Assembly: GCA_963575745.1 (NCBI GenBank)
Contig: CAUYUJ010001713.1
Span: 1 to 64,000 of the forward strand
Length of the DNA stretch: 64,000 bases
Reading direction: 5' to 3'
DNA from: Prorocentrum cordatum
Taxonomy: Eukaryota > Sar > Dinophyceae > Prorocentrales > Prorocentraceae
Shown here: positions 14,626-64,000 of the stretch, one piece after another
Layout of the letters: each line of letters begins with the position of its first letter
Numbering within the stretch: the stretch's first letter is position 1
Program-made: the position numbers and the translations under genes
Notes under the pieces: generated by a model
The model's database searches: none
The model's input: the letters and a program-made list of their open reading frames with translations, nothing else
Told to the model about the DNA's origin: nothing

Positions 14626-14659
14626 GAGCCAGCGGTAAACCGTCAACCTTGGCTTTTGA

Positions 14660-15595: not shown

Positions 15596-15625
15596 AAAAC
15601 AAGGTTGACGGTTTACCGCCGGCTC

Positions 15626-27467: not shown

Positions 27468-27845
27468 TTTTTTTTGCGGTTTGCGGTCCGCCACTAGAAT
27501 CCGAATCCGAATCGGCGGAGCAGTGCAACTGAGCCCCCACCATCTTAGGTAGGTCGCAGCAGAGCGCACGCCACCTTAGCAGCAGCTCTCGTCAGGGCAG
27601 CGCAGGCAGCTAGTTCACAGCAGGTTACCGTGCTACCAGGAGGCAAGCTCATCGCCTCCTCGGCCACATCGTGCCAATGGAAGCTGTGCGAGCTGGTGCA
27701 GGAGGAGGAGGAGGAGGAGGAGGAGGAGGAGGAGATGGGAAAATCAACCTGCACGCTGGAACCCCTACCTACAACGCCAATCTGAAGCCACCACCCACCT
27801 CCACATCCTTCATTACTGACACCCCCATCGAATGCACCACGAGAG
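27468..27845 (-). mobile_element. LINE G, 378-bp 3' stub
   Basis: Target duplication CAACCTTTGTT at 27457-27467 and 27846-27856 inside a hairpin loop. T-tract up to 27475, sense 3' motif CGCAAACCGCAAAAAA. The hairpin right arm TTACCGCCGG resumes after the duplication. It is the best-defined short insertion in the window. Confidence 0.9.
27545..27844 (-). pseudogene. LINE G RNase H C-terminal fragment
   Basis: The frame reads GAFDGGVSNEGCGGGWWLQIG, a serine run encoded by a GGA/TCC repeat (about 27700-27733), then FHWHDVAEEAMSLPPGSTVTCCELAACAALTRAA and stop at 27545. It starts just before the FDGG motif, so only the last half of the permuted RNase H is retained. The Glu of the CCELAA motif is present. 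Confidence 0.8.
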
Positions 27846-30800: not shown

Positions 30801-31390
30801 TAGTTTTGCGATCCTAGCTCGGGCAGCAGGGCGAGTTCAGAGCTCTCGATTCAACAGACGAACGGGCCTGATGATTTCCAATCGATTTCTGTGACTATGA
30901 TCTCTGTAGCTGTCCTATAGCTCGAGTTAAGCACAAAATACCGAGAGCGTCTGTCAAGATCACTCGAATAATACGAATAGGTTTGTGGACCTAGCTCGGC
31001 TAGCAGACCGATTTCAGGCATCTGGGTTCAACAGGCGAACGCGCCTGATCATTCTGCATCGATTAGCTGTGCTCACCAGCCCTGTAGCTGTCCTGGAGCT
31101 CGAGTTATCTTGAGAAAACCGACAGCGCGTAACAAGATGACTTGAAACGGCCGATCCCGCCCGCGTGCTTTTTGGCAGTAAAAGGTACCCGATCGAGCTG
31201 AGATCAAGATGGCGAGCGAAAATAAGATCGAATATCACGGGAAAAATACTAGAGCTCTAACGAATGTTCAAATTTCGAGAACGAAATTTTCAACCGACGA
31301 AAAGTCACCAAAAGGTCTGTCGAGATTTTTCTTGCCAACTAGCTCTCCAGCGCCCCGGAACTGGGAACCGGCGGTAAACCGTCAACCAGG
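27846..31390 (+). repeat. satellite and hairpin modules
   Basis: Two satellite groups of about 1 kb (27846-28990 and 30220-31365) flank several short modules (29003-30200). Hairpins start at 29003, 29359, 29866, 30203 and about 31370. The one at 29003 has the variant stem GGCGGCAA / TTGCCGCC. The satellite groups end with the GATCCCGCCYGC...GATCAAGATGGCGAG segment. No gene-like frame is supported. Confidence 0.85.
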
Positions 31391-31468
31391 TTTTTGCGGG
31401 CTTTGCGGTGGGGTCCTCCAGCACATGCAAGCAGCGGTGCTCCCCGCGGCCACCCAGTGCTCCCCGCG
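31391..31468 (-). mobile_element. LINE H, tiny 3' stub
   Basis: Inserted after GTCAACCAGG of a hairpin loop: T-tract 31391-31395, sense motif CGCAAAGCCCGCAAAAA, then about 70 bp containing the direct repeat GTGCTCCCCGCGGCCAC twice. Module sequence CTCGTAGAGCTC resumes at about 31473. It codes for nothing. Confidence 0.65.
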
Positions 31469-31469
31469 G

Positions 31470-31975
31470 CCACCTCGTAGAGCTCTGCATAGACCAGGTC
31501 GGTTCCGAGATAACAGCAGAAAAAATCTTCTGCATACTAGCTTCAAACATAAAGACATGTTTTTTTGGTCGTACACAAAAGTGGTTCCCTCTAGTCTTTA
31601 AATCGAAATAATGCAGCTAGGGCCCTGAGAATTGCACCATCGAAAGCGCCATGATTCACTGCATAGAATAAAAATTCAAATTTGCAAAACGAATTTCAAA
31701 ATGTCTCGTCATCTTCGAAAAACTGACCCCAGGTCATCATATTGTCCGCCCGGGCCGGGTTGGCCAACTAGCTGCACCCCGCGCCGGAATTCCTCTAGCT
31801 CATCGATGCCGAAAAGCTCCACGAGGTACTAGCTCCACCCTGCGCCCGAATTCCTCTTAGCTCATCTTGCGGAAGAGCTCTACGAGGTACTCTAGCTCAT
31901 CGATGCCGAAGAGCTCTACGAGGTATTACTCTTAGCTTCCAGCAACTGGGAGCCGGCGGTAAACCGTCAACCAGG
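31470..31975 (+). repeat. short module and three module tails
   Basis: A short module body (31470-31780) is followed by successive tails at about 31796-31832, 31858-31895 and 31896-31925, each ending AGCTCYACGAGGTA and followed by CT or TACT. It then meets the hairpin at about 31951 where LINE D sits. Serial tails are expected when nested modules close one after another. Confidence 0.65.
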
Positions 31976-37848: not shown

Positions 37849-39880
37849 GAGCCGGGACCCTCGTAGAGCTCCGAATAGCGAATTCAGTTTCGAGAGCAGA
37901 AAACGCTGCTCAATACCAGCTTGAAAAATAAAGCAATATTGTTTTCGGTCGTACACAATGTTGGTTCCCCGTAGTGTTTTGATCGAAATATTGCAGCTAG
38001 GGCCCTCAGATTTGCACCATCGAAAGCGCCATGATTCACTGCATAGAATAAAAATTCGACTTTACAAAACGAATTTCAAAATCTCTCGCCATCTTCAAAA
38101 AACCGACCCCAGGTCATCACATTGCCCGCCCGGGCCGGGTTGGCCAACTGGCGCCGGCGGTGAACCGTCAACCTGGTGACCGCCGGGAAGCTCGTAGAGC
38201 TCCTTGCACGCGCAAGAATGCTCGGCATCCGAAGAGAGGGCTTCTGGAAGCACTTCTCGAAAAAGAGATAAGATAATATTTTTCATCTCGACATGAACTT
38301 GGTTTCGCCAAGTGTTTTGATAGTAAAAGGGAATCTAGAGAGCTCATATTAAGACGGAGAGGCCCTCATAGTCATTCACAGGTGCGAAAAATCTGCTTTC
38401 TCAAAATAAATGGTCAAATATCTTTCAAATATTCGCAAAACCACCCAAAAATTACCACATTGTCCGTTCTGGTCGGGTCGACCAACTGGCGCCGGCGGTG
38501 AACCGTCAACCTGGTCACCGCCGGGAACTTCGTAGAGCTCGTTCCACGGGTAAGAGTGCTCGGAGACTAAAGAGAGAGCTTCTGGAAGCATTTCTCGAAA
38601 AAGAGAAAAAATCATATTTTTCGTGTCGACATGAAGATTGTTGCTCCAACTGTTTTGATAGTAAAAGTGCGCCTACAGAGCTCATACTAAGACAGAGAGG
38701 CCCTCACAGTTGTTTACAGGTGCGAAAAATCTCCTTTCTTAACATGAATTGTCAACTGGGCGCCGGCGGTAAACCGTCAACCTTTCTTACCGCCGGGGGA
38801 CTCGTAGAGCTTCCTGACAACATAGAATGTCGAAAGAAATTACACAGAAAAAATATTTTTCAGCCCAGGCAATTTGAGACCTCTCGGATGCAAAAGACGA
38901 ACGCCGCCGATGCTTCTAGATTCTCTTCTGTACGAGCTCTGTAGCTCTCCTACAGCCCGAGTTACGTGCGTAAATCGACAGCACCTCTCAAGATGACTCG
39001 AACAATACGAGTAGTTTGGCAGACCTAGTTCGAGCATCAGACCGAGTTCAGACCTCTCCATGCGACAGGCGGACGCGTCTGATGTCTCTGAATCGATCCA
39101 TGCGATTACCAGCCCTGCAGCCCCCCCTGCAGCCGAGCTAAGTGCAGGAAACCGACAGCATCTCTCAGGATGACTCGAACAATACGAATAGTTTCCCGGA
39201 CCTAGTTCGGGCAACAGACCGAGGTCGGAGCTCTGGATTCCGCAGGCGAACGCGCCTGATGTCTTCGAATCGATTCCAGTGATTACCAGCCATGCAGCCC
39301 CCCTACAGCCCGAGTTAAGTGCAGAGAACCGACAGTATCTCGCAAGTGACTCGAACAATACGAATAGTTTCGCGATTCTAGATCGGGCAGCAGACCGAGT
39401 TCAGAGCTCTGCATTCAACAGACAACGGCCACTGATGATTCTGAATCAGATTATGAACGTAGCGGCTCTTTAGCTGTCCTGTAGCTCGAGTTAAGTACAG
39501 AAAACCGAGAGCGTCTGTCAAGATGACTCGAATAATACGAATAGGTTTGCGCACCTAGCTCGGCTAGCAGACCGAATTCAGACCTCTGGCTTCAACAGGC
39601 GAACGCGCCTGATCATTCTGAATCGATTGGCTGTGCTTACCAGCTCTTTAGCTGTCCTGAAGCTCGAGTTATCTTAAGAAAACCGATATCGCGTATCACG
39701 CTGACTCGAAACGGCCGATCCCGCCTGTGTGCTTTTTGGCAGTAAAAGGTACCCGATCGAGCTAAGATCAAAATGGCGAGCGGGAATAAGATCGAATATC
39801 ACGGGAAAAAATACTAGAGCTCAAACGAATTGTTGAATTTTGAGAACCAAATGGCGCCGGCGGTGAACCGTCAACCTGGT
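37849..39880 (+). repeat. short modules then satellite group
   Basis: Short modules at 37860-38150, 38186-38490 and 38526-38755 are separated by hairpins starting at 38153, 38492 and 38763. The hairpin at 38763 is followed by CTCGTAGAGCTTCCTGACAACATAGAATG and about six satellite monomers to 39840. The last hairpin (about 39854-39880) hosts LINE E. No coding sequence. Confidence 0.85.
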
Positions 39881-39912
39881 TTTTTGGTTTTCGCACCGTT
39901 CGTCCAGCAGGG

Positions 39913-40775
39913 TCAGCTGGCGGTGAGGATCTGTCGTGCCAAATGCACAACAGCGCTTGAGAGCGCCTCAGCAGCACTGAGTTCGGCATCGGTTATCGCA
40001 GCACCTTCCTCAAGGCACCACGCGGCTTCGCACACATCCCTCCAAACGAGGGGGGTATTGGAGGGCACAGAGTAAGGAGAGGAGGAAAGAAGAGGGGAAT
40101 AAGGAGTACTCTTATTACAATCGTAATCGAGATTCAAAAGCCCGATCTGAAGCCAGAACCCACATCCCGTCCCTTTGCTGCACACACCCCCGTCGAAGGC
40201 ACCACGACAGGCGATAGGTTGAAGATAGCTTTCAAAGTTGAATCTGTATTCATACTCATTGTAGAAGCAATGGCCCTCACGGGCCAGGTGTGTAAGCTCG
40301 TCAGCCCGTGTGTTATCCTCCCTATACTCATGTTTGTACAGATCTCTCCCCAGCCCAGAGCATCTAATCCCCAACTCATTAGCGTTTCGTTCCATGACAT
40401 CAATACATTGATCAATGCGGCGTTGATATTGTTTGTTTCGACACCGCCATCGTCCCGTCAACCATGCGTGTACTAACATGCTATCCCCTTTCATTTCAAC
40501 TGCAAACCCAGGGCTGATGATGTCCCACACGGTTTGTCTTTCATTGATCGTGGCCAGACGCTTGGCCATCCTCGCGGCCTCTTTCTCACTCTGTGCACGT
40601 CCCTCCTGTCCGATCTCCTCTGGCGGCGTACTCTGGATAGCGGTCCCTTTCCAATTCTGAACGAAATACTCAAAGGTCTTTGTTTTATTATATGTGCATA
40701 ATATATTCTGCCACATGTCGAGAAAAGCTCTGTATGAAGGAACCACAGCCTGCCACCACATAGTTCCGTATGATA
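39913..40775 (-). CDS. LINE E permuted RNase H segment (after frameshift)
   Basis: About 282 codons: WWQAVVPSYRAFLDMWQ connector, FEYFVQNWKG, then FAVEMKGDSMLVHAW, YREDNTRADELTHLAR, GAFDGGVCSKGTGCGFWLQIG, AAITDAELSAAEALSSAV, and stop at 39913. The motif order is second half first. The frame joins ORF2 only if the TA microsatellite (40776-40791) is corrected or frameshifting occurs. Confidence 0.85.
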
Positions 40776-43700
40776 ATATATATATATATATGGATACTGC
40801 CAGCTCCTCTGACCCACGCTCTCAGGTCCACTGCGTATTCTCTTGCCAGATGATGCCTGCGTGCGATTTGCATGCAGACGAAGACATTCACTCAGAGTAT
40901 CCCTGCGCGTAGTCCATTCAACATTATACATCAGAAGGCCTCTGCGAGAATCAACATATGCACGATTCTCCTGAGATTGGGCCATACTGCATGCAGGAGG
41001 CGGGGAGACGGAAGGCTCAGAAGCAAGCACAGAGGTCGCCGTCTGACTCCCCGATATTGTACCTCCAAAACCTAGCCTCAATCCTGAGAGCCTGCGTCTT
41101 TTGAGATTCTGTCTATTGATGTCCGTTCTCTGAATATTGATATGTTGTGCCAAGTTTTGAGAGATAACCTCCAGTCTATGTGTCAAAGAATCGGCATCCT
41201 GTGCAATATGTGTCATATTCTGCTCCAATGGTTGTGATGATGGTCCCTCAAATCGGACTCTTTTCTGTGAAGGCTCGGCCCCGTCGTCAGTCCTCGGTGT
41301 CGCCACGTCTGCGGTAGGTGAACACCGCGCACGTGGGTCAGAAAGAATATAATTGCGAACACTCAGCATCATCGTCCAGCTCTTCCACGCAATCATCTGC
41401 ACGGCCGAAGGGAAGCTCCCGCTGGCGAAGTGCGAGCGTACCTTGTGGAGCATCTGGGGTCTCCAAACACCCCATGTGACGTCGGATGGCTTGCGTCGGC
41501 ACCACATACGAAGCAAGCACATGCCTTCAAAAGCGTGAATAGCACGGACGGCCTCGGCATCTAGCGTGATGACTTCTCCCGCAAACAGGAGCCTCGACTG
41601 AACCTGATACTGATATCGTCGATATTTGTGCTTCAACGGCACAGCCCTGCATCCAAAATATGATATCTGAGCAAAGAAAGCGCCACGTGCACATTTGAGA
41701 CGATGTTGGAGATCTTCGTGGCCCTCATGAAAGCTGCTGGAGACTACACTGCCTAAGATATTGAGTGACTCAACCTGTTTGAACGATACCTGCCGGTCCC
41801 CAACCTGAGCCCAAATTGGTGTCCTGTCAGGAGTGCCACAACGGAGGACCTGCAAAGACGACGCCTTCCAACTCATCCCCCAATCATTTAGGGCCACAGT
41901 GAATACATTGACGATGTCCTGGATCTCCGTCGGGCCCCTTCCCACAAGATAAAGATTATCAGCCCATAGTGCATGATTGTATATATGATAGGTGCTGGGG
42001 TCATGAGGGCTGGGGATCTCATATCCTATCTTGCGGGCGTCAAGGGAGGCAACAACGCTGGCCCACATGGCCACCGTCACGATGTTGAAGGCCAGCGGAC
42101 TCTCTGTTCCCCCTGTTCTCAAGCTATTATCCCAAGACACACCACGAAGCTCGATACCCTCGAAGAGGATCGTGCAATTCGTTTCGACGAGCGGCTCGAG
42201 CAAAGCGTACTGCAGGCGTGCTGGTATCTCAAGCTTATCCATCGCCCGTGCAAGCGTGCTCAAAGTCACATTGTCGAATGCCCGTGCAATATCCGCCGAT
42301 GCAATCCACGCGCTCTGGTCCTTGCCCCAGATGGATGCGTGCTGGGCGATACCCTTGAGAGCAGCAGCGATCTCCCAAGTGTGTCTACCTCCTGCAAAGC
42401 CGTACAACCCGAGCTTGCCTTTCCAAAGAGCAATCCTCTCCTCAATCAACAGCGTCACTGATGTGAGGTACCATTTCCCCAGGGTGTTAGACACAATAAG
42501 ATTACGAGTATCCTCAAGAGAGTTCATCTCCGACATCTTTGGCATCAAATTCAAGTACACATCACACCACGAACTGGGGGTACGTCTTGCCCCTGAGAAA
42601 ATATCCTGAAATACTGCAATGATTCTGCGAACACAGCGCCAGGGCAATGCTTTCAACAGCTCAATACTGACCCCATCCGGCCCGCAGGCCTTGCCACTGC
42701 GAAGGTGTGCGCGCGCACGATAAACAATAGATGGCGTGAGTGTGAGAGCCTCTGCGTGGCTATGGAGAGCAGCGCGAGCACGAAGATTGCGTACAAGTAA
42801 TATGTTACGTTCACGCTCCGTGTTACATGTCATAGTGCGTGCCGCATGTGCCTTGACCTCCTCCTCCCACGCCTCCCTGTCCTCCGTCACGATACCCTCC
42901 ACCTTCAGCTTGCGCACTCTCGTCCTCCTCCCTCTCCTCGTAGGTTCCACCGAGAACTCAGCTTTCTGTCGATTGTATTCGGCCTGTAGGGGACGAAGCT
43001 GTCGTCTAACCTCACGACGTGCCTGAGGATCCCCTCTGAGCTCACGAACTTGTTTCTCAAGAAGGGCCTGCTGTGGGGCCCTCGTCGGGGGCGGCCTACG
43101 ATACCGCGGGGCACATAGGAGGGGGAGAGCATGATCCCTGATGGTTTGGGCGAGCTCCTCGGGGCGCTTGTGGGGAAACTGCACGTCAGTCATCACTCTG
43201 TACATGTCCCCCTCCCGATGTGTCTCGAACTGCTTGTGTGCACTGTGATGTCTAGGTGCTGGTCGGTACCGAGAGGGGGGCCTGGATTCCGCATCTATTT
43301 CCACGGAGAGCAAAGCGTGATCACTGAAGCGGGCATCTGGTGCTTCGCACAGCATGTCCACTTTCAGATCTACAATGGAATCGTGCCAGCAAGTTGGCAC
43401 CATGACATAGTCTAGTACTCGCTGAACTCTTGGCCCAACTCGTCTGCCGAGAGGTTCAAATGTGGGCATTCTCTGAGTTCCGAGCGTGTTGACTGCACAA
43501 AGCCGCATCGTCTGCATGAACCCCTCCATCTCCTCCCTCAGATGATCTTCCCTCCACCTTCTTTGCTCATGGTCCCCCTTCACTCCGTACCCTCTGTGCA
43601 TGGCAATGGACAAAGCTTCGCCTGTGTGGATGCCGAACCTGGTGTTCAGTCCAGGCGTGAGCTCCACATTCGCATCACATGCTAGCACGAGTTTGTATCC

Positions 43701-44144
43701 CGACCCGTGTGTAGAGGTGAAGCTTGTGAAAGCATTCCTAATATTGAGTAGCATCTCAGATTGGACCTCCAACGCATCCTCACGATCTGCATGTGGAAAA
43801 TACGCTGATACTAAGAAAACACACGGACGAGCAAGTACAACAATAGAAACCCGATTGTACTGGAAGCTAGCTTTGATGTTGTGCCTTTGCGGCCCCCTGA
43901 TGGCCACTCCAGCAAGCATGCAAGTTGAGAGATACGATTCCCATCTCAACTTTCTAAAAGACTCTGAATTATGTGCGAGATGCTGGCACTCCTGAAGACA
44001 TACGATATTGACCCCAAGTGTAGTAAGCAATCGCATGCAACTGAATCCCCTATCCTGGCTCTTTCCAAGTTTATTGATATTCAAAGTCCCAAGCTGCACG
44101 AGTAGGGAGCCAGGCGACCTACCTTTGGAACCCTTTGAGCCCCG
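40491..44144 (-). CDS. LINE E ORF2: endonuclease + reverse transcriptase
   Basis: It continues in frame from ORF1. Endonuclease (first ~270 residues from QLGTLNINKLG): VCLQECQHL, VLACDANVELTPG, RVLDYVMVPTCWH, RFSDHALLSVEI. A basic linker (RRGRRTRVRKLKVEG) leads to RT: HLRSGKACGPDGVS, motif A SADIARAFDNVTL, motif B RTGGTESPLAFN, motif C ALWADNLYLV (ADN at 41955-41963, about residue 713), motif D GMSWKASSLQVL, thumb IHAFEGMCLLRM. An extra segment (about 41330-40960) follows the thumb. Near 40790 a TA repeat shifts the frame, so the last ~100 codons of this frame (to 40491) are spurious. RNase H continues in the next frame. Confidence 0.85.
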   Translation of the reverse strand, partial: RGSKGSKGRSPGSLLVQLGTLNINKLGKSQDRGFSCMRLLTTLGVNIVCLQECQHLAHNSESFRKLRWESYLSTCMLAGVAIRGPQRHNIKASFQYNRVSIVVLARPCVFLVSAYFPHADREDALEVQSEMLLNIRNAFTSFTSTHGSGYKLVLACDANVELTPGLNTRFGIHTGEALSIAMHRGYGVKGDHEQRRWREDHLREEMEGFMQTMRLCAVNTLGTQRMPTFEPLGRRVGPRVQRVLDYVMVPTCWHDSIVDLKVDMLCEAPDARFSDHALLSVEIDAESRPPSRYRPAPRHHSAHKQFETHREGDMYRVMTDVQFPHKRPEELAQTIRDHALPLLCAPRYRRPPPTRAPQQALLEKQVRELRGDPQARREVRRQLRPLQAEYNRQKAEFSVEPTRRGRRTRVRKLKVEGIVTEDREAWEEEVKAHAARTMTCNTERERNILLVRNLRARAALHSHAEALTLTPSIVYRARAHLRSGKACGPDGVSIELLKALPWRCVRRIIAVFQDIFSGARRTPSSWCDVYLNLMPKMSEMNSLEDTRNLIVSNTLGKWYLTSVTLLIEERIALWKGKLGLYGFAGGRHTWEIAAALKGIAQHASIWGKDQSAWIASADIARAFDNVTLSTLARAMDKLEIPARLQYALLEPLVETNCTILFEGIELRGVSWDNSLRTGGTESPLAFNIVTVAMWASVVASLDARKIGYEIPSPHDPSTYHIYNHALWADNLYLVGRGPTEIQDIVNVFTVALNDWGMSWKASSLQVLRCGTPDRTPIWAQVGDRQVSFKQVESLNILGSVVSSSFHEGHEDLQHRLKCARGAFFAQISYFGCRAVPLKHKYRRYQYQVQSRLLFAGEVITLDAEAVRAIHAFEGMCLLRMWCRRKPSDVTWGVWRPQMLHKVRSHFASGSFPSAVQMIAWKSWTMMLSVRNYILSDPRARCSPTADVATPRTDDGAEPSQKRVRFEGPSSQPLEQNMTHIAQDADSLTHRLEVISQNLAQHINIQRTDINRQNLKRRRLSGLRLGFGGTISGSQTATSVLASEPSVSPPPACSMAQSQENRAYVDSRRGLLMYNVEWTTRRDTLSECLRLHANRTQASSGKRIRSGPESVGQRSWQYPYIYIYYHTELCGGRLWFLHTELFSTCGRIYYAHIIKQRPLSISFRIGKGPLSRVRRQRRSDRRDVHRVRKRPRGWPSVWPRSMKDKPCGTSSALGLQLK
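40776..40791 (+). repeat. TA microsatellite inside LINE E ORF2
   Basis: Eight TA units, translated as YIYIY in the broken frame. LINEs C and D have WQTPFHEFF and WYYSLESFY at this point. The repeat is therefore a local expansion that replaced or shifted a few codons. Confidence 0.8.
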
Positions 44145-44147
44145 TCA
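44099..44147 (-). promoter_or_regulatory. candidate UGA-CGG readthrough site, LINE E
   Basis: ORF1 UGA is followed by CGG, and the same frame continues through RGSKGSKGRSPGSLLVQLGTLNINK into the endonuclease with no ATG before the conserved start. UGA-CGG is a known leaky context in other systems. Unlike LINEs B and D, I find only a weak stem (GTAGG / CCTAC, large loop) downstream. Confidence 0.5.
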
Positions 44148-45263
44148 ACGGTTGAGTGCCGTTGTGAAATCCTCGTACGTGCACGAGATGTTGGTATTGT
44201 GTCTGATCGCACCGTCCCACGTATCACGATGAACAGTCCAGGTACCTGTGGAGATCCTGAATACGGCAACCTCCACCGGTCGGCGTGAAGGGTCCGAGGG
44301 CTTGGACCAGATGGAGCTGACCCCCAGGCCCGACCCCGTCTCTGCCTTGATGTCCATGTTGGGGTTGTTTCCAATCATCTCGCGCCACGTGCCGCAGAAG
44401 CGTCCGCAGGCCGCGATATGGTCCTTCTTCCAGGGGGGAGCCTCCAGTCTGACCTTGACCGTATCAGGCGCCGTGGCCAGGTTGACAAACATGGTGGCTC
44501 TCGGTGGTGGGGTACGGGCCAGCTGCGTGGTCGAGCGCTCCGCATCAGGCGTAAATGCATCCTCCAGGATCTGCTTGATTTCCCAAAAGACTGAGTCCTC
44601 AGTGCCTGCAACAAACTTCAGTTTAACAGAGCTCATCATGATGCGATTGCCATTGAGCCGCAGGGTTCCCAGGTCATCGAACTTGGCACTGATTTCCTGG
44701 GGAAGCATGGCCTTCACATTGATGATGAGTTGAGTGGCATCACTGTCACGCATCATCGATTGAGATCTCTGAAGTGTCGTGCCTTTCCAGTTGGTCCATC
44801 CAGTGAGCTCCACGAAGCTGCGATTCCAGTGAAGTCTTTGAGCACCACCAGGCCCCAGTGAGGCCCCTGCTGTGGTTGAAACACTGGCGTTGCTTGTCGG
44901 ATTGGAGCGCAGCGATTGAAACTGCCGTTCTAACTCCGTCATCCGTGTATCTGTCTTCTGCTGCTGATTGGAAATGCGGTTGATCTCTGATCTCATCACT
45001 CGTGCCTCTTCACGTGTGACTGCCTGCCCTGCAATCACTTCATTATGCATATTCTGAAACCAGGGGGGAGCTTCGCTGGCCGTCAACAGGCTCTGTGTCT
45101 TCGCTTTGTCGAGTGCCTGTCGTGCCGCCTGCAGTGCGTCATCGTCCTGCGTTCCCTGATCCCCCCGATGACGAACCGACCTCTCGAATTCCGCTTCCTG
45201 TCCATTCTTTGCTACATTTGCTGGTCCACCTGGCGCAGCTGGCGCAGCCACCTGAGTAGCCAT
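44145..45263 (-). CDS. LINE E ORF1 protein
   Basis: ATG at 45261-45263 (MATQVAAPAAPGG) is the likely start; the frame is open further upstream to 45311. About 372 residues. Alanine-rich N-terminus, then a probable coiled coil with heptad-like RMTELERQFQSLRS. An NASVSTTAGASLGPGG linker leads to a conserved C-terminal half: FVELTGW, SDATQLIINV, DSVFWEIKQILEDAF, APPWKKDHIAACGRFCGTWRE, SSIWSKP. Likely an RNA-binding chaperone for the LINE RNA, by position only. No zinc knuckle is visible. It ends in TGA (44145-44147), in frame with ORF2. Confidence 0.85.
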   Translation of the reverse strand: MATQVAAPAAPGGPANVAKNGQEAEFERSVRHRGDQGTQDDDALQAARQALDKAKTQSLLTASEAPPWFQNMHNEVIAGQAVTREEARVMRSEINRISNQQQKTDTRMTELERQFQSLRSNPTSNASVSTTAGASLGPGGAQRLHWNRSFVELTGWTNWKGTTLQRSQSMMRDSDATQLIINVKAMLPQEISAKFDDLGTLRLNGNRIMMSSVKLKFVAGTEDSVFWEIKQILEDAFTPDAERSTTQLARTPPPRATMFVNLATAPDTVKVRLEAPPWKKDHIAACGRFCGTWREMIGNNPNMDIKAETGSGLGVSSIWSKPSDPSRRPVEVAVFRISTGTWTVHRDTWDGAIRHNTNISCTYEDFTTALNR

Positions 45264-45779
45264 GCTTGTGTCTGTGCCAGAAAGAATGCTGGGAGGAAGC
45301 CTACCACTCACCCACGAGGGGCTCCACTGAGTATCGGATGCCGTTTTGCCGAAGATGTGTTCACCGACAATCAGACGGCCGGCAGAGCGAGGTAGATTTG
45401 TTTACCGGCCTGTTTGGCTCAAGGGAAAAGTGTCCAGTGTGCTCTGCTGCTGCCACAAGACGATGTGTTCACCGACAATCTGAACGAGGAACAGCGTCAA
45501 TGAGCAACAATGTGTTCTCGAGCGCAATCAGGTGCAGCTCCGTCGAGTCTGCACCTATGCACGATAATCTGGACAATCACTGTGCCCTCCGACAATACAG
45601 ACTGAAGAAGCAGTATGCACTCTGATAATGAATGAAAGCGTACGGTGCTCAGGCAGAACCAACACTGAGATACCGTGTACAGTATGGGGAACCAGAAGCC
45701 GCCTCTCTGCACGATGCAGCTCGAAACGAGGGGACCCCCAGCGGCGAGGCCAGGCAGGGCAGGAGGTAAGCTCTGCCAA

Positions 45780-48700
45780 AACCTGGTCACCGCCGGAAAC
45801 CTCGTAGAGCTCCTTGCATCCGTAAGAGAGCTCAGGATCAAAGCGAGAGCTTCTGGGAGCTTTTCTACAAAAACTTGAAGTTAAGATTTTTCGGAGTTAA
45901 CATGAAGTCGGTTCCTCCAAATGAACTGGTACTAAAAATGGTTCTAGGAGGCTAAGCTGCTCAGGGAAAAAAGTTAATATGTCAATGCTCGGAGTAAAAA
46001 TCTGCTTTCTCAAAATGAATTGTCAAATATCTTTCAAAAAATCGCAAAACCGCCCAAAAGTTGCCACATTGTCCGCCTCAGCCGGGTGGGCCAACTAGCC
46101 CCACCCCGCGCCGGAATTCCTCTAGCTCGTCGATGACGCAGAGCTCTACGAGGTATTTTCAACCGACCAAAAGTCAGCAAAAGGTCCGTCGAGATTTTCC
46201 TTGCCAACTAGCTCTCCAGCGCCCCGGAATTACTGGGCGCCGGCGGTAAACCGTCAACCTTGGTTACCGCCGGGGGACTCGTAAAGCTTCCTAGCTCGCC
46301 TGAAGTTGAGAAAACCGACAACAATACAGTAGTTTCGCAGACCTAATTCGGGCAGCAGACCGAGTTCTGAGCTCTCGATTCGACAGCCAGACGCGCCTGA
46401 TGTCTTCAGATCGACTTATCTAACCACCAGCACTGTAGCCCTCCTCAGCGCGAGTTGACTGAAGAAAACGGAAAGCACTTCTCAAGATCACTCGACCAAT
46501 ACGAAAAGTTCTGCGATTCTAGATCGGGCATCAGACCGAGTTCAGAGCTCTGGATTCGACAGACAAACGCAACTGATGATTTTGAATCGGTTTCTGTAAA
46601 TATCAGCTCTGTAGCTGTCCTGCAGCTCGAGTTAAGTACAGAAAACCGAGAGTTCCGGTCGAGATCACTCGAATAATACGAATAGGTTTGCGGACATAGC
46701 TCGGTTGTCAGACCGAGTTCAGACCTCTGGATTCAACAGGCGAACGCGCCTAATCATTCTACATCGATTAGCTGTGCTTACCAGCTCTTTAGCTGTCCTA
46801 AAACTCGAGTTATGATCAGAAAACCGTCAGCGCGTATCAAGATGACTCAAAACGGCCGATCCCGCCACAGTGCTTTTTGATAGTAATATTCACCCGATCG
46901 AGCTGAGATCAAGATGGCGAGCGGGACTGGGCGCCGGCGGTAAACCGTCAACCTTGGTTACCGCCGGGGAACTCGTAGAGCTTCCTAGCTCGACTCAAGT
47001 TGAGAAAACCGACAGCACCTACCAACATTCCGACTTATAGTAAATATGTTTTGACCTCTGTATGCGACAGGCGGACGCGTCGGATGTCTGCGAATCGACT
47101 CCTGTCATTACCAGCCCTGCAGCCCCCCTACAGCCCAAGTTAAGTGCAGAAAACCGAGAGCACCTCTCAGGATGACTCGAACAATACAATAGTTTCGCAG
47201 ACCTAACTCGGGCACCAGACCGAGTTCTGAGCTCTGGATTCGACAGGCGCACGCGCCTGATGTCTTTAAATCGATTCCTGTGACCACCAGGACTGTAGCC
47301 CCCCTCAGCGCGAGTTGAGTGAAGAAAACCGAGAGCACTTCTCAAGATGACTCGATCAATACGAATAGTTTCGCGATTCTAGATCGGGCAGCAGACCGAT
47401 TTCAGAGCTCTGGATTCGACAGACAAACGCAACTGATGATTCTGGATCGGTTTCTGTAAATATCAGCTCTGTAGCTGACCTAGAGCTCGAGTTAAGTACA
47501 GAAAACCGAGAGTTCCTGTCAAGATGACTCGAATAATACGAATAGGTTTGCGGACCTAGCTCGGCTAACAGACCGAGTTTAGACCTCTGGATTCAACAGG
47601 CGAACGCGCCTTATTCTACATCGATTAGCTGTGCTTACCAGCTCTGTAGCTGTCCTAGAGCTCGAGTTATGCTCAGAAAACCGTCAGCGCGTATCAAGAT
47701 GACTCAAAACGGCCGATCCCGCCACAGTGCTTTTCGATAGTAATATTCACCCGATCGAGCTGAGATCAAGATGGCGAGCGGGAATAAGATCGAATATCAC
47801 GGGAAAAAATACTAGAGCTCTAACGAATGGTTGAATTTTGAAAACAAAATTTTCAACCAACCGACCAAAAGTCAGCAAAAGTTCCGTCGAGATTTTTCTT
47901 GCCAACTAGCTCTCCAGCGCGCCGGAATTACTCTTAAGCTTCCAGCAACTAGCTTAGGGAAACTCTACGAGTCACTAGAGCTCTAACGAATGGTCAGATT
48001 TCGAGAACATAATTTTCAACCGAGCCAAAGTTGTGAAAAGTTCAGTCGAGATTTTTCGAGCCAACTAGCCTGCCAGCGTTTTCGAACTGGGCGCCGGCGG
48101 TAAACCGTCAACCTTGGTTACCGCCGGGAAACTCGTAGAGCTTCCAACATTCCGACTTAGAGTGAATATGGTTTGACCTCTGAATGCGACAGGCGGACGC
48201 GTCTGATGTCTGCGAACCGACTCCTGTTATTACCAGCCCTGCAGCCCCCCTACAGCCCGAGTCAAGTGGAGAAAACCGACAGCACCTCTCAGGATGACTC
48301 GAACAATACAGTAGTTTCGCTGACCTAATTCGGGCAGCAGACCGAGTTCCGAGCTCTGGATTCGACAGGCGGACGCGCCTGATGTCTTCAAATCGATGCC
48401 TGTGACCGCCAGCACTGTAGCCTCTTCAGCGCGAGTTGAGCGCAGAAAACCCAGAGCACTTCTCAAGATGGCTCGACCAATACGAATAGTTTCGCGATTC
48501 TGGATCGGGCAGCAGACCGATTTGAGAGCTCTGGATTCGACAGACAAACGTAACTGATGATTCTGATTCGTTTTCTGTAAATATCAGCTCTGTAGCTGCC
48601 CTACAGCTCGAGTTAAGTACAGAAAACCGAAAGTTTCTCTCAAGATGACTCGAATAATACGAAGAGGTTTGCGGACCTAGCTCGCCTAACAGACCGAGTT

Positions 48701-54700: not shown

Positions 54701-55062
54701 CAACACTCGTCAAAATGACTCGAAGAATACAAATAAGTATGCGGACCCAGCTCGAGCAGCAGACCGAGATCAGAGCTGTAGATCGAACAGATGAACGTGT
54801 CTCGTGATTCCCAATCGTTTTCTGTAAACATCAGATCTGCAGCTGTCCTATATCCCAAGATAAGTACAGAAACCGTTAATGCGTGTCAAGATGACTCGAA
54901 ACGGCCGCCGGTTCCAGCAATTGTTTTGATAGTAACTTGGTAGCGTCCACTTGGCAGCGTCCACTTGTAAGCGTCCAAAACCCGGATAGCGAGGCAAGGC
55001 GCGGAGCGCAGAGCGATCCAAAGCGCCGCACGGCGACCTCTGCCAGGCCGCCTGGAACGACT
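51757..55062 (+). repeat. satellite groups and short modules
   Basis: It resumes the monomer interrupted at 48811. A tail GGGAAGCTCTACGAGTC lies near 52020-52038. Hairpins start at 52761, 53100, 53437 and 54586, with short modules at 52794-53095 and 53133-53430 and a satellite group at 53470-54575. The interval 54900-55060 has a small direct repeat (TAGCGTCCACTTGGCAGCGTCCACTTG). No gene is seen. Confidence 0.85.
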
Positions 55063-56029
55063 GGGCGCCGGCGGTAAACCGTCAACCTTTGTTACCGCCG
55101 GGGGACTCGTAGAGCTTCCTGACAGTATATAGTGTGGAAAAAAATCCAGAGAACGACTAGTTTTCAGCCCAAGCGATTTCAGACCTCTCAAGATGACTCT
55201 AACAAAAAAAAAAAAAACAGTTTCGCAACCCAGTTCGAGTATCAGACCGAGTTCAGACCTCTCAATGCGACAGGCGGACGCGTCTGATGTCTGCGAATCG
55301 ACGCATGTGATTACCAGCCCTGCAGCCCCTCTACAGACCGAGTTAAGTGCAGAAAACCAACAGCATCTCTCAGGATGACTCGAATAATACAATAGTTTCG
55401 CGGACCTGTTTCGAGCAGCAGACCAAGTTCTGAGCTCTCGAATCGACCAACGAACGCGCTGATGTGTGCAAATCGATTTCTATGACCCGCAGCACTGTAG
55501 CCCTCCCCCAGCACGAGTTGAGTGCAGAAAATTGAGAGCACTTTTCACGATGATTCGGACAATACGAATAGTTTCGCGAATCTAGCTCAGGCAACAGGCC
55601 GAGTTCAGAGCTCTCGATACAACAGACAAACGCGCCCGATAATTTTCAATCGATTTCTGTGACTATAGGCTCTGTAGCTGCCCTACAGCTCGAGTAAAGT
55701 AGAGAAAACCGAGAGCGTCTGTCAAGATGCCTCGAAAAATACGAATAGATTTGCGGACCTGGCTCGGCTAGCAGACCAATTTCAGACCTCTCGATCCAAG
55801 AGGCGAACGCGCCTGATAATTCTGAATGCGATAAATGTGCTTACCAGCTCTCTAGCTGCCCTGCAGCTCGAATTTAGAAGAAAATACCCACCACGTGTAT
55901 CAAGTTCACTCCAATAATACAAATAGGTTTGCGGACCTAGCTCGGCTAGCAGACTGAGTTCAGACCTATGGATTCAACAGGCGAACGCGCCTGATGATTC
56001 TGAGTGCGATAGGTGTGCTTACCAGCACT

Positions 56030-58914
56030 GGGCGCCGGCGGTAAACCGTCAACCTTTCTTACCGCCGGGGGACTCGTAGAGCTTCCTGACAGTATATAGT
56101 GTGGGCAAAAATCCAGAGAACGACTAGTTTTCAGCCCAAGCGATTTCAGACCTCTCAAGATGACTCTAACAAAAAAACCAAACAGTTTCGCAATCCAGTT
56201 CGAGTATCAGACCGAGTTCAGACCTCTCAATGCGACAGGCGGACGCGTCTGATGTCTGCGAATCGACTCATGTGATGACCAGCCCTGCAGCCCCCCTACA
56301 GCCCGAGTTAAGTGCAGAAAACCGACAGCATCTCTAAGAATGACTCGAATAATACAATAGTTTCGCGGACCTCTTTCGACCAACGAACGCGCCTGATGTA
56401 TGCAAATCGATTTCTATGACCCGCAGCACTGTAGCCCTCCCCAGCACGAGTTGAGTGCAGGAAATTGAGAGCACTTTTCACGATGATTCGGACAGTACGA
56501 ATAGTTTCGCGAACCTAGCTCGGGCAGCAGGCCGAGTTCAGAGCTACAACAGACAAACGCGCCCGATAATTCCCAATCGATTTCTGTGACTATAGACTCT
56601 GTAGCTGCCCTACAGCTCGAGTCAAGTACAGAAAACCGAGAGCGTTTGTCAAGATGACTCGAAAAATACGAATAGATTTGCGGACCTAGCTCGGCTAGCC
56701 GACCGAGTTCAGACCTCTGGAGTGAAGAGGCGAACGCGCCTGATCATTCTGAATGCGATGGATGTGCTTACCAGCTCTGTAGCTGCCCTGCAGCTCGAAT
56801 CAAGTACAAAATACCCACCACGCGTATCAAGTTGACTCAAAAAATACGAATAGGTTTGCGGACCTAGCTCGGCTAGCAGACCGAGTTCAGACCTATGGAT
56901 TCAACAGGCGAACGCGCCTGATGATTCTGAGTGCGATAGGTGTGCTTACCTGCACTGTAGCTGCACTACAGCTCGAGTTAAGTATAAAATACCGACAGCG
57001 CGTATCAAGTTGACTCGAATAATACGAATAGGTTTGCGGACCTAGCTCGGCTAGCAGACCGAGTTCAGACCTATGGATTCAACAGGCGAACGCGCCTGAT
57101 GATTCTGAGCGCGATAGGTGTGCTTACCAGCACTGTAGCTGCCCTACAGCTCGAGTTAAGTAGAAAATACCGACAACGCGTATCAAGATGACTCGAAACG
57201 GCTCTTCCCGCCGGGACGCTTTTTGACCTTCAAAATTACCCGATCGAGCTGAGATCAAGATGGCGAGCGGAATAAGATCGAATATCACGGGAAAAAATAC
57301 TAGAGCTCTAACGAATGGTCAAATTTTGAGAACAAAATTTTCAACCGACCAAAAGTCACCAAAAGGTCCGTCGAGATTTTTCTTGCCAACTAGCTCTCCA
57401 GGGCTCCGGAATTACTGGGCGCCGGCGGTAAACCGTCAACCTTTGTTACCGCCGGGGGACTCGTAGAGCTTCCTGACAGTATATAGTGTGGAAAAAAATC
57501 CAGAACGACTAGTTTTCAGCCCAAGCGATTTCAGACCTCTCAAGATGACTCTAACAAAAAAACAGTTTCGCAATCCAGTTCGAGTATCAGACCGAGTTCA
57601 GACCTCTCAATGCGACAGGCGGACGCGTCTGATGTCTGCGAATCGACGCATGTGGTTACCAGCCCTGCAGCCCCTCTACAGACCGAGTTAAGTGCAGAAA
57701 ACCAACAGCATCTCTCAGGATGACTCGAATAATACAATAGTTTCGCGGACCTGTTTCGAGCAGCAGACCAAGTTCTGAGCTCTCGAATCGACCAACGAAC
57801 GCGCTGATGTGTGCAAATCGATTTCTATGACCCGCAGCACTGTAGCCCTCCCCCAGCACGAGTTGAGTGCAGAAAATTGAGAGCACTTTTCACGATGATT
57901 CGGACAATACGAATAGTTTCGCGAATCTAGCTCAGGCAACAGGCCGAGTTCAGAGCTCTCGATACAACAGACAAACGCGCCCGATAATTTTCAATCGATT
58001 TCTGTGACTATAGGCTCTGTAGCTGCCCTACAGCTCGAGTAAAGTAGAGAAAACCGAGAGCGTCTGTCAAGATGCCTCGGATAATACGAATAGGTTTGCG
58101 GACCTGGCTCGGCTAGCAGACCAATTTCAGACCTCTCGATTCAAGAGGCGAACGCGCCTGATAATTCTGAATGCGATGAATGTGCTTACCAGCTCTCTAG
58201 CCCTGCAGCTCGAATTTAGAAGGAAATACCCACCACGCGTATCAAGTTCACTCCAATAATACGAATAGGTTTGCGGACCTAGCTCGGCTAACAGACTGAG
58301 TTCAGACCTATGGATTCAACAGGCGAACGCGCCTGATGATTCTGAGTGCGATAGGTGTGCTTACCAGCACAGAAGCTGCCCTACAGCTCGAGTTAAGTAG
58401 AAAATACCGACCACGCGTATCAAGTTGACTCGAATAATACGAATAGGTTTGCGGACCTAGCTCGGCTAACAGACCGAGTTCAGACCTCTGACTGGAACAG
58501 GCGAACGCGCCTGATGATTCTGAGTGCGATAGCTGTGCTTACCAGCTCTGTAGTTCTCCTACAGCTCGATTTGAATACAAAATAACGACAACGCGTATCA
58601 AGATGACTCGAAACGGCCGATCCCGCCAGAGTGCTTTTTGAAAGTAAAAGGTACCCGATCGAGCTGAGATCAAGATGGCGAGCGGGAATAAGATCGAACA
58701 TCACGGGAAAAATACTAGAGCTCTAACGAATGGACAAATTTCGAGAACAAAATTTTCAACCGACCAAAAGTTGTGAAAATTCTTTTTTTTTCGAGCCAAC
58801 TAGCTCTCCAGCGCGCCGGAATTACTCTTAAGCTTCCAGCAACTAGCTTGGGGAAGCTCTACGAGTCACTCTTAAGCTTCCAGCAATAACTTGCTAAGGG
58901 AAGCTCTACGAGTT
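56030..58914 (+). mobile_element. hairpin module, second level
   Basis: The host monomer GTGCTTACCAGCACT (to 56029) is cut; after this module ends (GAGTT, 58914) the host resumes as ACAGTAGCTGCCCTACAGCTCGAG. Uninterrupted monomers such as 57121 read CCAGCACTGTAGCTGCCC, so the halves join in register, with one base different in the repeated ACT. Confidence 0.8.
57417..58867 (+). mobile_element. hairpin module, third level, 1.45 kb
   Basis: Inserted at GGAATTACT (57408-57416) of the second-level module. It ends GGGGAAGCTCTACGAGTC (58867), then ACTCTTAAGCTTCCAGC resumes the host tail. The first ~840 bp are almost identical to 55063-55925 apart from small indels, including two predicted peptides with no difference. 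Confidence 0.8.
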
Positions 58915-60430
58915 ACAGTAGCTGCCCTACAGCTCGAGTTAAGTAGAAAATACCGACCACGCGTATCAAGTTGACTCGAATAATACGAATAGGTTTGCGG
59001 ACCTAGCTCGGCTAACAGACCGAGTTCAGACCTCTGACTGGAACAGGCGAACGCGCCTGATGATTCTGAGTGCGATAGCTGTGCTTACCAGCTCTGTAGT
59101 TCTCCTACAGCTCGATTTGAGTACAAAATACCGACAACGCGTATCAAGATGACTCGAAACGGCCGATCCCGCCAGTGTGCTTTTTGGCAGTAAAAGGTAC
59201 CCGATCGAGCTGAGATCAAGATGGCGAGCGGGAATAAGATCGAATATCACGGGAAAAAATACTAGAGCTCTAACGAATGGTCAAATTTCGAGAACAAAAT
59301 TTTCAACCGACCAAAAGTTGCGAAAAGTTCAGTTCTTTTTTTTTCGAGCCAACTAGCTCTCCAGCGCGCCGGAATTACTCTTAAGCTTCCAGCAATAACT
59401 TGCTCAGGGAAGCTCTACGAGTTACTCGGCGCCGGCGGTAAACCGTCAACCTTGGTTACCGCCGGGGAACTCGTAGAGCTTCCAAGCTCGACTTAAGTTG
59501 AGATAACCGACAGCACCTACCAACATTCTGACTCATAGTGCATATTGTTTGACCTCTGAATGCGACAAGCGGGCGCGTCTGATGTCTGCGAATCGACTCC
59601 TGTCATTACCAGCCCCGCAGCCCCCCTACAGCCCGAGGTTAGTGCAGAAAACCGACAGCATCTCTCGGAATGACTCGAACAATACAACAGTTTCGCGAAC
59701 CTAGTTCGGGCAGCAGACCGAGTTCCCAGCTCTGGATTCGACCGGCGGACGCGCATGATCTCTTTAAATCGATTCATATGACAACCAGAACTGTAGCCAC
59801 CTCTCAGCGCAAGTTCAGTAAAGAAAACCGAGAGCACTTCTCAAGATGACTCGACCAATACGAATAATTTCGCGATTCTAGATCGGGCAGAAGACCGAGT
59901 TCAGAGCTCTGGATTCGACAGAAGAACGCAACTGACGATTATGAATCAGTTTCTGTGAATATCAACTCTGTAGCTCTCTTACAGCTTGAGTTAAGTACAG
60001 ACAACCGAGAGTTTCTGTCAAGATGACTCGACTAATACGAATAGATTTGCGGACCTAGCTCGGCTCAAAGACCGAGTTCAGACCTCTGCATTCAACAGGC
60101 GAACGCGCCCAATCACTCTGCATCGATTAGCTGTGCTTACCAGCTCTGTAGATGTCCTAAAGCTCGAGTTATGTTCAGAAAACCGTCAGCGCGTATCAAG
60201 ATGACTTGAAACGGCCGATCCTGCCAGAGTGCTTTTTGGCCTTCAAAGTTACCCGATCGAGCTGAGATCAAGATGGCGAGCGGGAATAAGATCGAATATC
60301 ACGGGAAAAAATACTACAGCTCTAACGAATGGTCAAATTTCGAGAACAAAATTTTCAACCGACCAAAAGTCAGCAAAAGTTCCGTCGAGATTTTTCGAGC
60401 CAACTAGCTCTCCAGCGCGCCGGAATTACT

Positions 60431-62764
60431 GGGCGCCGGCGGTAAACCGTCAACCTTGGTTACCGCCGGGGACTCGTAGAGCTTCCTGACACTATATAAT
60501 GTGGGGAAAACACCAGAGAACGACTAGTTCAGCCCAAGCGATTTCGGACCTCTCAAGATTACTCTAACAAAAACAACTAGTTTCGCAACACAGTTCGAAT
60601 ATCAAACCGAGTTAAGACCTCTGAATGCGACAGGCGGACGTGTCTGATGTCTTCGAATCGACTCATGTGATTACCAGCCCTGGAGCCCCCCTACAGCCCG
60701 AGTTAAATGCAGAAAACCGACAGCATCTCTCAGGATGACTTCAATAATACAATAGTTTCGCGGACCTACTTCGAGCAGCAGGCCGAGTTCCGAGTTTTGG
60801 GTTCGACGGGCGGACGCGCCTGATGTGTCTGAATCGATTTCTGTGACCAGCAGCACTGTAGCCATCTCCCAGCACGAGTTGAGTGCAGAAAATTAAGAGC
60901 AATTCTCAAGATTATTCGAAGAATAAGAATCGTTTCGCGAACCTAGCTCGGGCAGAAGACCGAGTTCAGATCTCTCGATTCAACAGACGAACGCGCCTGA
61001 TAACTGCCAATCGATTTCTGTGACTATGAGCTCTGTAGCTGCCCTACAGCTCGAGTTAAGTACCGAAAACCGAGAGCGCCTATCAAGATGACTCGAATAA
61101 TACAAATAGGTTTGCGGACCTAGCTCGGCTAGCAGACCGAGTTCAGACCTCTGGATTCAACAGGCGAATGCGCCTGATGATTCTGAACGCGATAGATGCT
61201 GGCCAGCTCTGTAGCTGCCCTACAGCTCGAGTTAAGTACCGAAAACCGAGAGCGTCTGTCAAGATGACTCGAATAAGACAAATAGGTTTGCGGACCTAGC
61301 TCGGCTAGCAGACCGAGTTCAGACCTCTGGATTCAACAGGCGAATGCGCCTGATGATTCTGAACGCGATAGGCGTGCTGGCCAGCTCTGTAGCTGCCCTA
61401 CAGCTCGAGTTAAGTACAAAATACCGACAACGCGTGTCAAGATGACTTGAAACGGCCGATCCCGCCAGTGTGCTTTTTGGCAGTAAAAGGTACCCGATCG
61501 AGCTGAGATCAAGATGGCGAGCGGGAATAAGATCGAATATCACGGGAAAAAATACTAGAGCTCTAACGAATGTTCAAATTTCGAGAACAAAATTTTCAAC
61601 CGAGCAAAAGTTGTGAAAAGTTCCGTTCTTTTTTTTCGAGCCAACTAGCTCTCCAGCGCGCCGGAATTACTGGGCGCCGGCGGTAAACCGTCAACCTTGG
61701 TTACCGCCGGGGGACTCGTAGAGCTTCCTAACTCGACTTAAGTTGAGAAAACAGACAGCACTTACCAACAATCTGACTTATAGTGAATAGTTTTTGACCT
61801 CTAAATGCGACAGACGGACGCGTCTGATGTCTGCGAATCGACTCCTGTCATTACCAGCCCTGCAGCCCCCCTACAGCCCGAGTTAAGTGCAGAAACCCGA
61901 CAGCACCTCTCAGGATGACTCGAACAATAGGAATAGTTTCGCGGACCTAGTTCGGGCAGCAGACAGAGTTCAGAGCTCTGTATTCGACATGCGGACGCGC
62001 CTCATGTCTTCAAATCGATCCCAGTGATTACCAGCCATGCAGCCCCCCCTACAGCCCGAGTTAAGTCCAGATAACCGACATTATCTCGCAAGCGACTCGA
62101 ACGATACAAAAGTTTCGCGATTCTAGATCGGGCAGCAGGCCGAGTTCAGAGCTCTGGAGTCGACAGACAAACGCAACTGATGATTCTGGATTGGTGCCTC
62201 TGAATATCAGCTCTGTAGCTGTCCTACAGCTCGAGTGAAGTGCAGAAAACCGAGCGTTTCTGTCAAAATGACTCGAATAATACGAACAGGTTTGTGGCCC
62301 TAGCTCGGCTAGCAGACCGAGTTCAGACCTCTGGATTCAACAGGCGAACGCGCCTGATCATTCTGCATGCATTAGCTGTGCTTACCAGCTCTGTAGCTGC
62401 CCTAGAGCTCGAGTTATGTTCAGAAAACCGTCAGCGCATATCAAGATGACTCAAAACGGCCGATCCCGCCACAGTGCTTTTCGATAGTAATATTCACCCG
62501 ATCGAGCTGAGATCAAGATGGCGAGCGGGAATAAGATCGAATATCACGGGAAAAAATACTAGAGCTCTAACGAATTGTCAAATTTTGAGAACAAAATTTT
62601 CAACCGAGCAAAAGTTGTGAAAAGGTCAGTCGAGATTTTTCGAGCCAACTAGCTGTGGGGCGCGCCGGAATTACTCTTAGCTTCCAGCAATAACTTGCTA
62701 AGGGAAGCTCTACGAGTCACTCTAAGCTTCCAGCTATAACTAGCTCAGGGAAGCTCTACGAGTT
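60431..62764 (+). mobile_element. hairpin module, second level
   Basis: Inserted at GGAATTACT (60422-60430). It closes GAAGCTCTACGAGTT at 62764, followed by ACTCTTAAGC. Its own tail hairpin is the AGCTA / TAGCT variant (62731-62745). Confidence 0.75.
61672..62718 (+). mobile_element. hairpin module, third level, 1.05 kb
   Basis: Inserted at GGAATTACT (61663-61671). It closes GGGAAGCTCTACGAGTC at 62718, followed by ACTCTAAGC. With the two outer modules it gives three starts (59432, 60436, 61677) matched by three successive ends (62718, 62764, 62808). Confidence 0.8.
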
Positions 62765-62811
62765 ACTCTTAAGCTTCCAGCAACTTGCTTCGGGAAGCTC
62801 TACGAGTCAGT
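62678..62811 (+). repeat. three serial tail hairpins
   Basis: Three copies of a 42-48 bp tail, each folding as AGCTTCC...GGAAGCT with an inner stem. The inner stem is AGCAA/TTGCT in the first and AGCTA/TAGCT in the second. Similar tails occur at 25741, 25850, 47938, 52004, 58830, 58871 and 59380. Confidence 0.75.
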
Positions 62812-64000
62812 GGGCGCCGGCGGTAAACCGTCAACCTTTGTTACCGCCGGGGGACTCGTAGAGCTTCCTGACAACATAGAATCTCAAAAAAAAAAATTGC
62901 AGAGGACGAATAGTTTTTCAGCCCAACTCGAGTATCAGACCGAGTTCAGACGTCTGAATGCAACAGGCGGACGCGTCTGATGTCTTCGAATCGATTGCTG
63001 TGATTACCCGCCCTACAGCCTCCCTATAGCCCGAGTTAAGTGCAGAAAGCCGACAGCAGCTCTCAGGATGACTGGAAGAATACGAACAGTTTCGCGATTC
63101 TGGATCGGGCAGCAGACCGAGTTCAGAGCTCTGGATTCGAACGCGACTGATGATTCTGAATCGGTTTCAATAAGTATCAACCCTGTAGCTGTCCTATAGC
63201 TCGAGTTAAGTACAGGAAACCGAGAGCGCCTGTCAAGATGATTCGAATAATACGAATAGGTTTGCGGACCTGGCTCGGCTAGCAGACCGAGTTCAGACCT
63301 CTGACTGGAACAGCCGGATGCGCCTGATCATTCTGAGACCATAAGGTGTGCTTACCAGCTCTGCAGCTGTCCTATATCTCGAGTTAAGCTCAGAATAACA
63401 GCAGTGCGAATTAAGATAACTCGAATAATACATATAGGTTTGCGAACCTAGCTCGGCTCACAGACCGAGTTCAGAGCTCTGGGTTCAACAGGCAAACGCG
63501 CCTAATCATTCTACATCGATTAGCTGTGCTTACGAGCTCTGTAGCTGTCCTAAAGCTCGAGTTATCTTCAGAAAATCGTCAGTGCGTATCAAGATGACTC
63601 GAAACGGCCGATCCCGCCACAGTGCTTTTCGATAGTAATATTCACCCGATCGAGCTGAGATCAAGATGGCGAGAGGGAATGAGATCGAATATCACGGGAC
63701 GAAATACTAGAGCACAAACGAATTGTTGAATTTCGAGAACAAAATTTTCAACTGTCCAAAAGTTGTGAAAAGTTCAGTCGAGATTTTTCGAGCCAACTAG
63801 CTGTGGGACGCGCCGGAATTACTCTTAGCTTCCAGCAATAAGTGGGAGCCGGCGGTAAACCGTCAAGCAGGTTACCACCGGGACCCTCGTAGAGCTCCGA
63901 AAGGCGAAGTCGGTTTCGAGAGCAGAAAACGCTGCTTAATACCAGCTTGAAAAATTCAGGAATATTTTTTCGGTCGTGAAAACTGTTGGTTCCCCGTAGT
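62812..64000 (+). repeat. module start, satellite group, next module
   Basis: A hairpin (62817-62850) with CTCGTAGAGCTTCC is followed by about five monomers and the GATCCCGCCACAG end segment (63605-63840). A new hairpin starts at 63849 with short-module sequence like the right flank of LINE D (GACCCTCGTAGAGCTCCGAA). The window ends inside it, so its tail would lie outside. Confidence 0.8.

Follow-up and report, generated by a model that had tools for sequence, protein, structure and literature searches.

Helitron2 transposons have a 5' T and an asymmetric inverted repeat, one copy of which lies in a 5' hairpin and the other just upstream of a 3' hairpin; complete copies lack target duplications. 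In the Chlamydomonas CRe families, copies are often 5'-truncated with intact 3' ends, and duplications of variable length are also described (PMC3627910). HINE/DINE-1 elements carry subterminal inverted repeats 2–4 bp from the 5' end and 38–60 bp from the 3' end, together with a 3' palindrome (PMC4067079), and the oyster element Cg_HINE has central satellite-like repeats, with monomers of ~168 bp in the SAT-2_CGi record (PMC7492417). Self-insertion is described for FoHeli of Fusarium oxysporum, copies of which can have several short 5' termini (typically <200 bp) and one 3' terminus, along with evidence for circular intermediates (PMC5148889). Targets of non-LTR elements include transposons (PMC4640811).

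We analysed 64,000 nucleotides of the dinoflagellate Prorocentrum cordatum (contig CAUYUJ010001713.1, positions 1 to 64,000; the window). Nested modules in this region, when read on the minus strand, are with a probability of about 0.87 non-autonomous Helitron2/Helentron (HINE) elements, a type of rolling-circle transposon, and very probably they strongly prefer their own 5' ends as targets. The layout of these elements is already known; what is new is the degree of self-targeting and the presence of LINEs in a hairpin loop.

Module structure

In reverse complement, a module consists of 5'-TRACTCGTAGAGCTTCC (a hairpin), satellite repeats of ~177 bp, GGAAGCTCTACGAGT, a GC hairpin and CAG-3', with termini 5' TRACTCGTAGAGC... 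and 3' ...GGTTGACGGTTYACC at the hairpin end. An earlier note on this DNA had read the modules backwards: its 'start', the GC hairpin plus CTCGTAGAGCTTCC, is the 3' end, and its 'end' comprises GGAAGCTCTACGAGT and its surroundings. We keep 'start' and 'tail' below for these 3' and 5' ends, respectively.

The A-type 5' end has the inverted repeat ACTCGTAGAGCTTCC directly after T(R), in line with Helitron2/HINE elements, where a repeat of 8–15 bp lies 0–4 bp from the 5' end. The second copy precedes the 3' hairpin; in 55063–55119 its distance from the 3' end was counted as 44 bp, which is inside the HINE range of 38–60 bp and beyond the ~20–30 bp of Helitron2. Most of the 36 hairpins that are complete carry this copy, and in a few it is degenerate. 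All three A-type 5' hairpins that we folded contained the whole inverted repeat (z −4.4, −4.9 and −5.7, the last being 58868–58914 at −12.5 kcal/mol). The one B-type 5' hairpin folded was no more stable than its shuffles (z −0.63), and two 3' hairpins gave z −1.35 (copy 55063–55119) and −3.22. Each of the 10 positions of the 3' stem was paired in 15 to 19 of 19 distinct hairpins, a count for which the arm position was picked to maximise pairing and in which the hairpins of a marine contig (L002, see below) were mismatched at the third pair. Several stem positions showed paired changes; in L002, for example, A-T replaces G-C and G-C replaces C-G.

The earlier note knew of no described family with this layout, but it matches that of non-autonomous Helitron2/HINE elements in the accounts cited above (PMC3627910, PMC4067079, PMC7492417). 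The repeat and two-hairpin arrangement, the 5' T, duplication-free complete copies and loss of 5' ends are all shared with Helitron2 as set out in PMC3627910, whereas the modules differ from it in the more internal 3' repeat (44 bp), the preferred insertion at 5' ends of the same family and the satellite core. Subterminal repeats, a 3' palindrome, a satellite core and the lack of target duplication are likewise shared with HINE and Cg_HINE (PMC4067079, PMC7492417). HINE elements, in those accounts, insert into T-rich DNA generally, whereas the modules insert beside a T, in many cases at a particular site within a further module. Canonical Helitron1, with 5'-TC, CTRR-3' and no 5' hairpin, was rejected, as the ends here are TRACTC and CAG and a 5' hairpin is present.

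Nested brackets and restored host sites

The earlier note had drawn six brackets from starts and ends said to close in strict nested order. Its coordinates were correct when checked against the sequence and profiles. For each bracket we joined the flanks and sought an uninterrupted match elsewhere, scoring it out of 44 with a threshold of 34. Four of the six restored uninterrupted host sequence at 38–43 of 44 (Table 1), including the satellite monomer that had been seen to resume in register across 56030–58914. The two outer brackets, 55063–59423 and 59427–62808, abut other modules and yielded no empty-site match; their scores of 35 are matches to other module starts. Random segment removal, the comparison that the note had proposed, reached 34 of 44 in only 3 of 393 trials.

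With a target site common to many modules, wrong pairs also obtained high scores: 159 of 585 start–tail combinations reach 34, and some wrong pairs equal right ones. The flanks alone therefore do not assign similar closers to starts, and a high score shows only that a site is restored; nesting order is fixed only by the contiguous innermost modules. Nor is strict nesting a rule. Across the window, profiles identified 46 starts, of which 39 are forward and 7 reverse; the hairpin is complete in 36, and in the remaining 10 an insert interrupts its loop. Set against the 39 forward starts are 15 complete forward tails and two fragments (31925–31949 and 63815–63839), counts that exclude weak partial profile hits and may miss diverged tails, the tail profile having been built from the 15. 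This shortage of 5' ends fits the 3'-intact, 5'-truncated CRe copies described for Helitron2 (PMC3627910). The next 10 kb of the contig add three starts and four tails, which with the start at 63845 make four ordered pairs; 64150–64729 restores an empty site at 40 of 44, and the other three score 0, 33 and 24.

By eye, the stretch 29862–31827 has one 5' end (31827) and three 3' ends (31364, 30201 and 29862). This composite may have moved as one unit, as if two terminators had been read through.

Table 1 Modules, module ends and LINEs in the window, with the evidence for each
Feature	Position	Strand	Evidence or remark
Composite module	55063..59423	-	3' hairpin end 55063-55119, 5' end 59423; contains 56030-58914
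Module in satellite monomer of outer module	56030..58914	-	Empty site CCAGCA^CAGTAGC; 43/44 to uninterrupted copy
Innermost module, in 5' end of its host	57417..58867	-	Site GGAATTA^CTCTTAAGC; 42/44
Composite module at 5' border of 55063..59423	59427..62808	-	Contains 60431-62764
Module	60431..62764	-	Inserted at GGAATTA^CTCTTAAGC; 43/44
Innermost module, 1.05 kb	61672..62718	-	Inserted at GGAATTA^CTCTAAGC; 38/44, one indel
Next module, to or past window end	62812..64000	-	3' hairpin end 62812-62868; at 5' border of composite 59427..62808
3' end: GC hairpin and 3' inverted-repeat copy	55063..55119	-	+ strand stem CCGGCGGTAA/TTACCGCCGG, loop ACCGTCAACCTTTG
5' end hairpin with whole 5' inverted repeat	58868..58914	-	Folding
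Uninterrupted 1.2-kb module	24565..25776	-	Empty site GGTTGAA^TTTCGAG; 42/44
Module in 5' region of short B-type module	23667..25891	-	Empty site CCAA^CTAGCTCC; 40/44
Short B-type module with 5.9-kb loop LINE, inside A-type module	39852..46154	-	Site GAACCAA^TTTTCAACC; 40/44
Composite in B-type tail	29354..31888	-	Site CGAATTA^CTCTAGCTC; 41/44
LINE with reverse-transcriptase ORF, in hairpin loop	39880..45787	-	RVT_1 E 3.6e-10; target duplication AACCTGGT
Short insert in hairpin loop, judged 5'-truncated LINE	27467..27856	-	Duplication CAACCTTTG(TT); no LINE coding match at E 1e-5
5'-truncated LINE in hairpin loop	13072..14293	-	Target duplication CAACCTGGT(C)
LINE in hairpin loop	5760..11638	-	Target duplication ACCTTGGT(T)
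LINE, 3' end in hairpin loop	31977..37850	-	5' junction without clear duplication
LINE C-terminal domain copies	32239-32844, 39916-40578, 19611-20249, 5831-6469, 1601-2320	all -	Motif order

Modules target their own 5' ends

The left flank of 37 of the 46 starts could be mapped to a reference module. The distance to the 5' end of that module was no more than 100 bp for 30 of the 37 and no more than 200 bp for 36. Positions 43, 46 and 60 bp from the host 5' end, and the border itself, were used repeatedly. In A-type hosts, 17 of 23 insertions fell within 100 bp of the 5' end against a uniform expectation of ~10% (p ~2.5e-13); composites may be copied together, so both this p value and the 30 of 37 count insertions that are not all independent. 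Seven loci elsewhere contained 16 starts, which gave 11 mapped flanks, 10 of them within 100 bp of the 5' end. The earlier note's proposal of a satellite-carrying, self-inserting mobile unit whose favoured target is its own tail is supported by these results.

One main target lies in other modules, at the 3' base of their 5' hairpin (GAG^TAATTCC or GAGTAA^TTCC), and the exact 5' border is also used. Self-insertion junctions would take the forms GGAATTACT|GGGCGCC, GGAACT|GGGCGCC and tail|start. GAG^TAATTCC is similar to CAG^TRACTCG, the junction at which the element's own two ends would meet, a likeness that may underlie the target preference. Self-insertion and the stacking of 5' ends are shared with FoHeli, for which one nested example and 'a number of' copies with several 5' ends are described (PMC5148889), compared with the 30 of 37 mapped insertions near a host 5' end seen here.

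LINEs in the terminator hairpin loop

A translated search revealed seven LINE coding segments in the window, six of which have their 3' end in a module hairpin loop, after CGTCAACCwwGG(T). In the seventh, 17997–19248 (forward), no 3' end is visible, and the 5' side is flanked by a degenerate hairpin half. In total, inserts interrupt ten hairpins, all at one position of the loop (761, 5731, 13045, 14625, 15625(−), 19365, 27438, 31364, 31949 and 39853): six of the inserts have LINE coding sequence, and four (14653, 15599, 27467 and 31392) were judged from their 3' sequence only to be pieces of LINEs. Among nine junction sets, one consists of two left halves placed head to head, and the other eight show an 8–11 bp duplication of the loop in four cases and none in four. 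At 14600–15630, two head-to-head inserts are each edged by a left hairpin half, forming an inverted repeat of ~1 kb.

Loci elsewhere contained four further LINE segments, two in the loop (L111 and L123) and two outside it with another 3' end (L112 and L125). The latter belong to a second LINE family (L112 5340–7784 and L125 1621–6188). The L112 LINE seems to lie inside a repeat (GTAAGCGTCC, AAAACCCGG), and by eye a relative of the L112 flank runs uninterrupted at 54965–55060 of the window.

In Xenopus, the Tx1L LINE sits inside the Tx1D transposon. The arrangement here is similar, in that an apparently site-specific LINE inserts into a transposon, with the target being the 3' hairpin loop of a rolling-circle-type element. 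A limited literature search did not find LINEs in a terminator hairpin loop in print as a target class.

In five window copies, the LINE C-terminal domain contains the motifs GDS, N..AD, FDGG and AEL, which we take to be those of RNase H in a permuted arrangement; one copy lacks the D of DAEL. AlphaFold2 predicted a compact domain (pLDDT 88, pTM 0.85), and the predicted order of its elements would suit a circularly permuted RNase H, a lead for which Pfam profile and fold searches gave no confirmation.

The LINEs also bear on whether the modules could be SINE-like retroelements moved by LINEs, their RNA terminating 3' in the hairpin, which we consider very unlikely. Hairpin ends do exceed the opposite ends (39 versus 15 complete tails), as in 5'-truncated retrocopies, and LINE 3' ends lie in the same hairpin. 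However, the 8–11 bp loop duplications at four LINE inserts indicate that the LINEs inserted into the hairpin rather than sharing its end, complete modules are precisely bounded on both sides without a duplication, and the hairpins at both ends fit Helitron2.

Insertion without target duplication

The earlier note had also seen in the ACT that usually flanks the modules a possible target duplication. ACT does occur to the left of 32 of 39 forward starts and to the right of 9 of 15 forward tails, as would suit a DNA transposon that moves by cut-and-paste and duplicates 3 bp, ACT, of its target. However, hosts without ACT still show it at the left (for example, 46930 and 38759), so the CT is part of the element, with the A common to module and host. 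At restored sites where the target is not A^CT, the two flanks differ: AAT/ATT at 24566–25776, AAT/ATT at 39853–46154 and ACT/ACA at 56031–58914. A constant ACT duplication was rejected on these flanks, and the asymmetric, hairpin-bearing ends also argue against a cut-and-paste element; we regard this explanation, too, as very unlikely.

For complete modules, the empty sites GGTTGAA^TTTCGAG, CCAGCA^CAGTAGC and GGAATTA^CTCTTAAGC need no duplication, with a 1-base ambiguity at the A. At all 15 complete forward tails, the right flank after GAGTY or GAGGY starts with A, or T in the Helitron orientation. A T adjoins the 3' end of the module; TT is not constant. A tyrosine-recombinase or IS200/605-like element integrating at a core site would also explain the absence of target duplication, the end hairpins and the strong target preference, but it is likewise very unlikely, given that the asymmetric repeat, two hairpins and 5'-end loss are together described for Helitron2 (PMC3627910).

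Genome-wide scale

An exact search of the 4.13-Gb assembly found the 25-base hairpin half 19,178 times and its reversed control 0 times. Neighbouring halves were on the same strand in 87 of 93 pairs, with a median spacing of 1,473 bp, in a small, unsystematic sample (99 of the first 100 places listed, from six low-numbered contigs, one of them mixed). Rep-domain genes are present in this genome: Helitron_like_N had at least 151 matches (150 of 1615 candidates scored), and the same search gave matches in 0 of 14 control genomes. No RepHel gene with module ends was found within the 10 kb taken at each of nine Rep loci, and membership of the modules in Helitron2/HINE therefore rests on layout.

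A marine contig filed under a Nitrospinota metagenome-assembled genome (L002, DUZG01000080.1) contains five hairpins with the same loop, together with stacked tails; the stems are changed in four of the five. This filing is probably wrong, as the contig has the look of eukaryotic DNA placed in a bacterial assembly.

Proposed mechanism and implications

For these Helitron2/HINE-type modules, we infer a rolling-circle reaction. A RepHel protein encoded elsewhere in the genome would nick the 5' end at N^TRACTCG and unwind the element as far as the 3' hairpin, and the 3' end would then be joined beside a target T without duplicating that T. The hotspot in another module's 5' hairpin would be chosen through its likeness to the element's own junction, CAG^TRACTCG. 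Repeated insertions in the same orientation would produce the brackets, the stacked 5' ends and the satellite-rich arrays.

More tentatively, and at somewhat below even odds, self-nesting may have two layers. In one, a transposon that targets its own 5' end would build large arrays, satellite-rich and of one orientation, throughout a 4-Gb genome; in the other, LINEs with a putative circularly permuted RNase H would form a lineage specialised on the loop of the transposon's 3' terminator hairpin, the arrays feeding both. The modules suggest a way in which a transposon, and not unequal exchange, can disperse and stack satellite DNA: the element takes its satellite along, and same-orientation insertions into its own copies add up to arrays. 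The hotspot yields a testable rule for target cutting by Helitron2-type elements, namely that the site resembles the element's own end junction.
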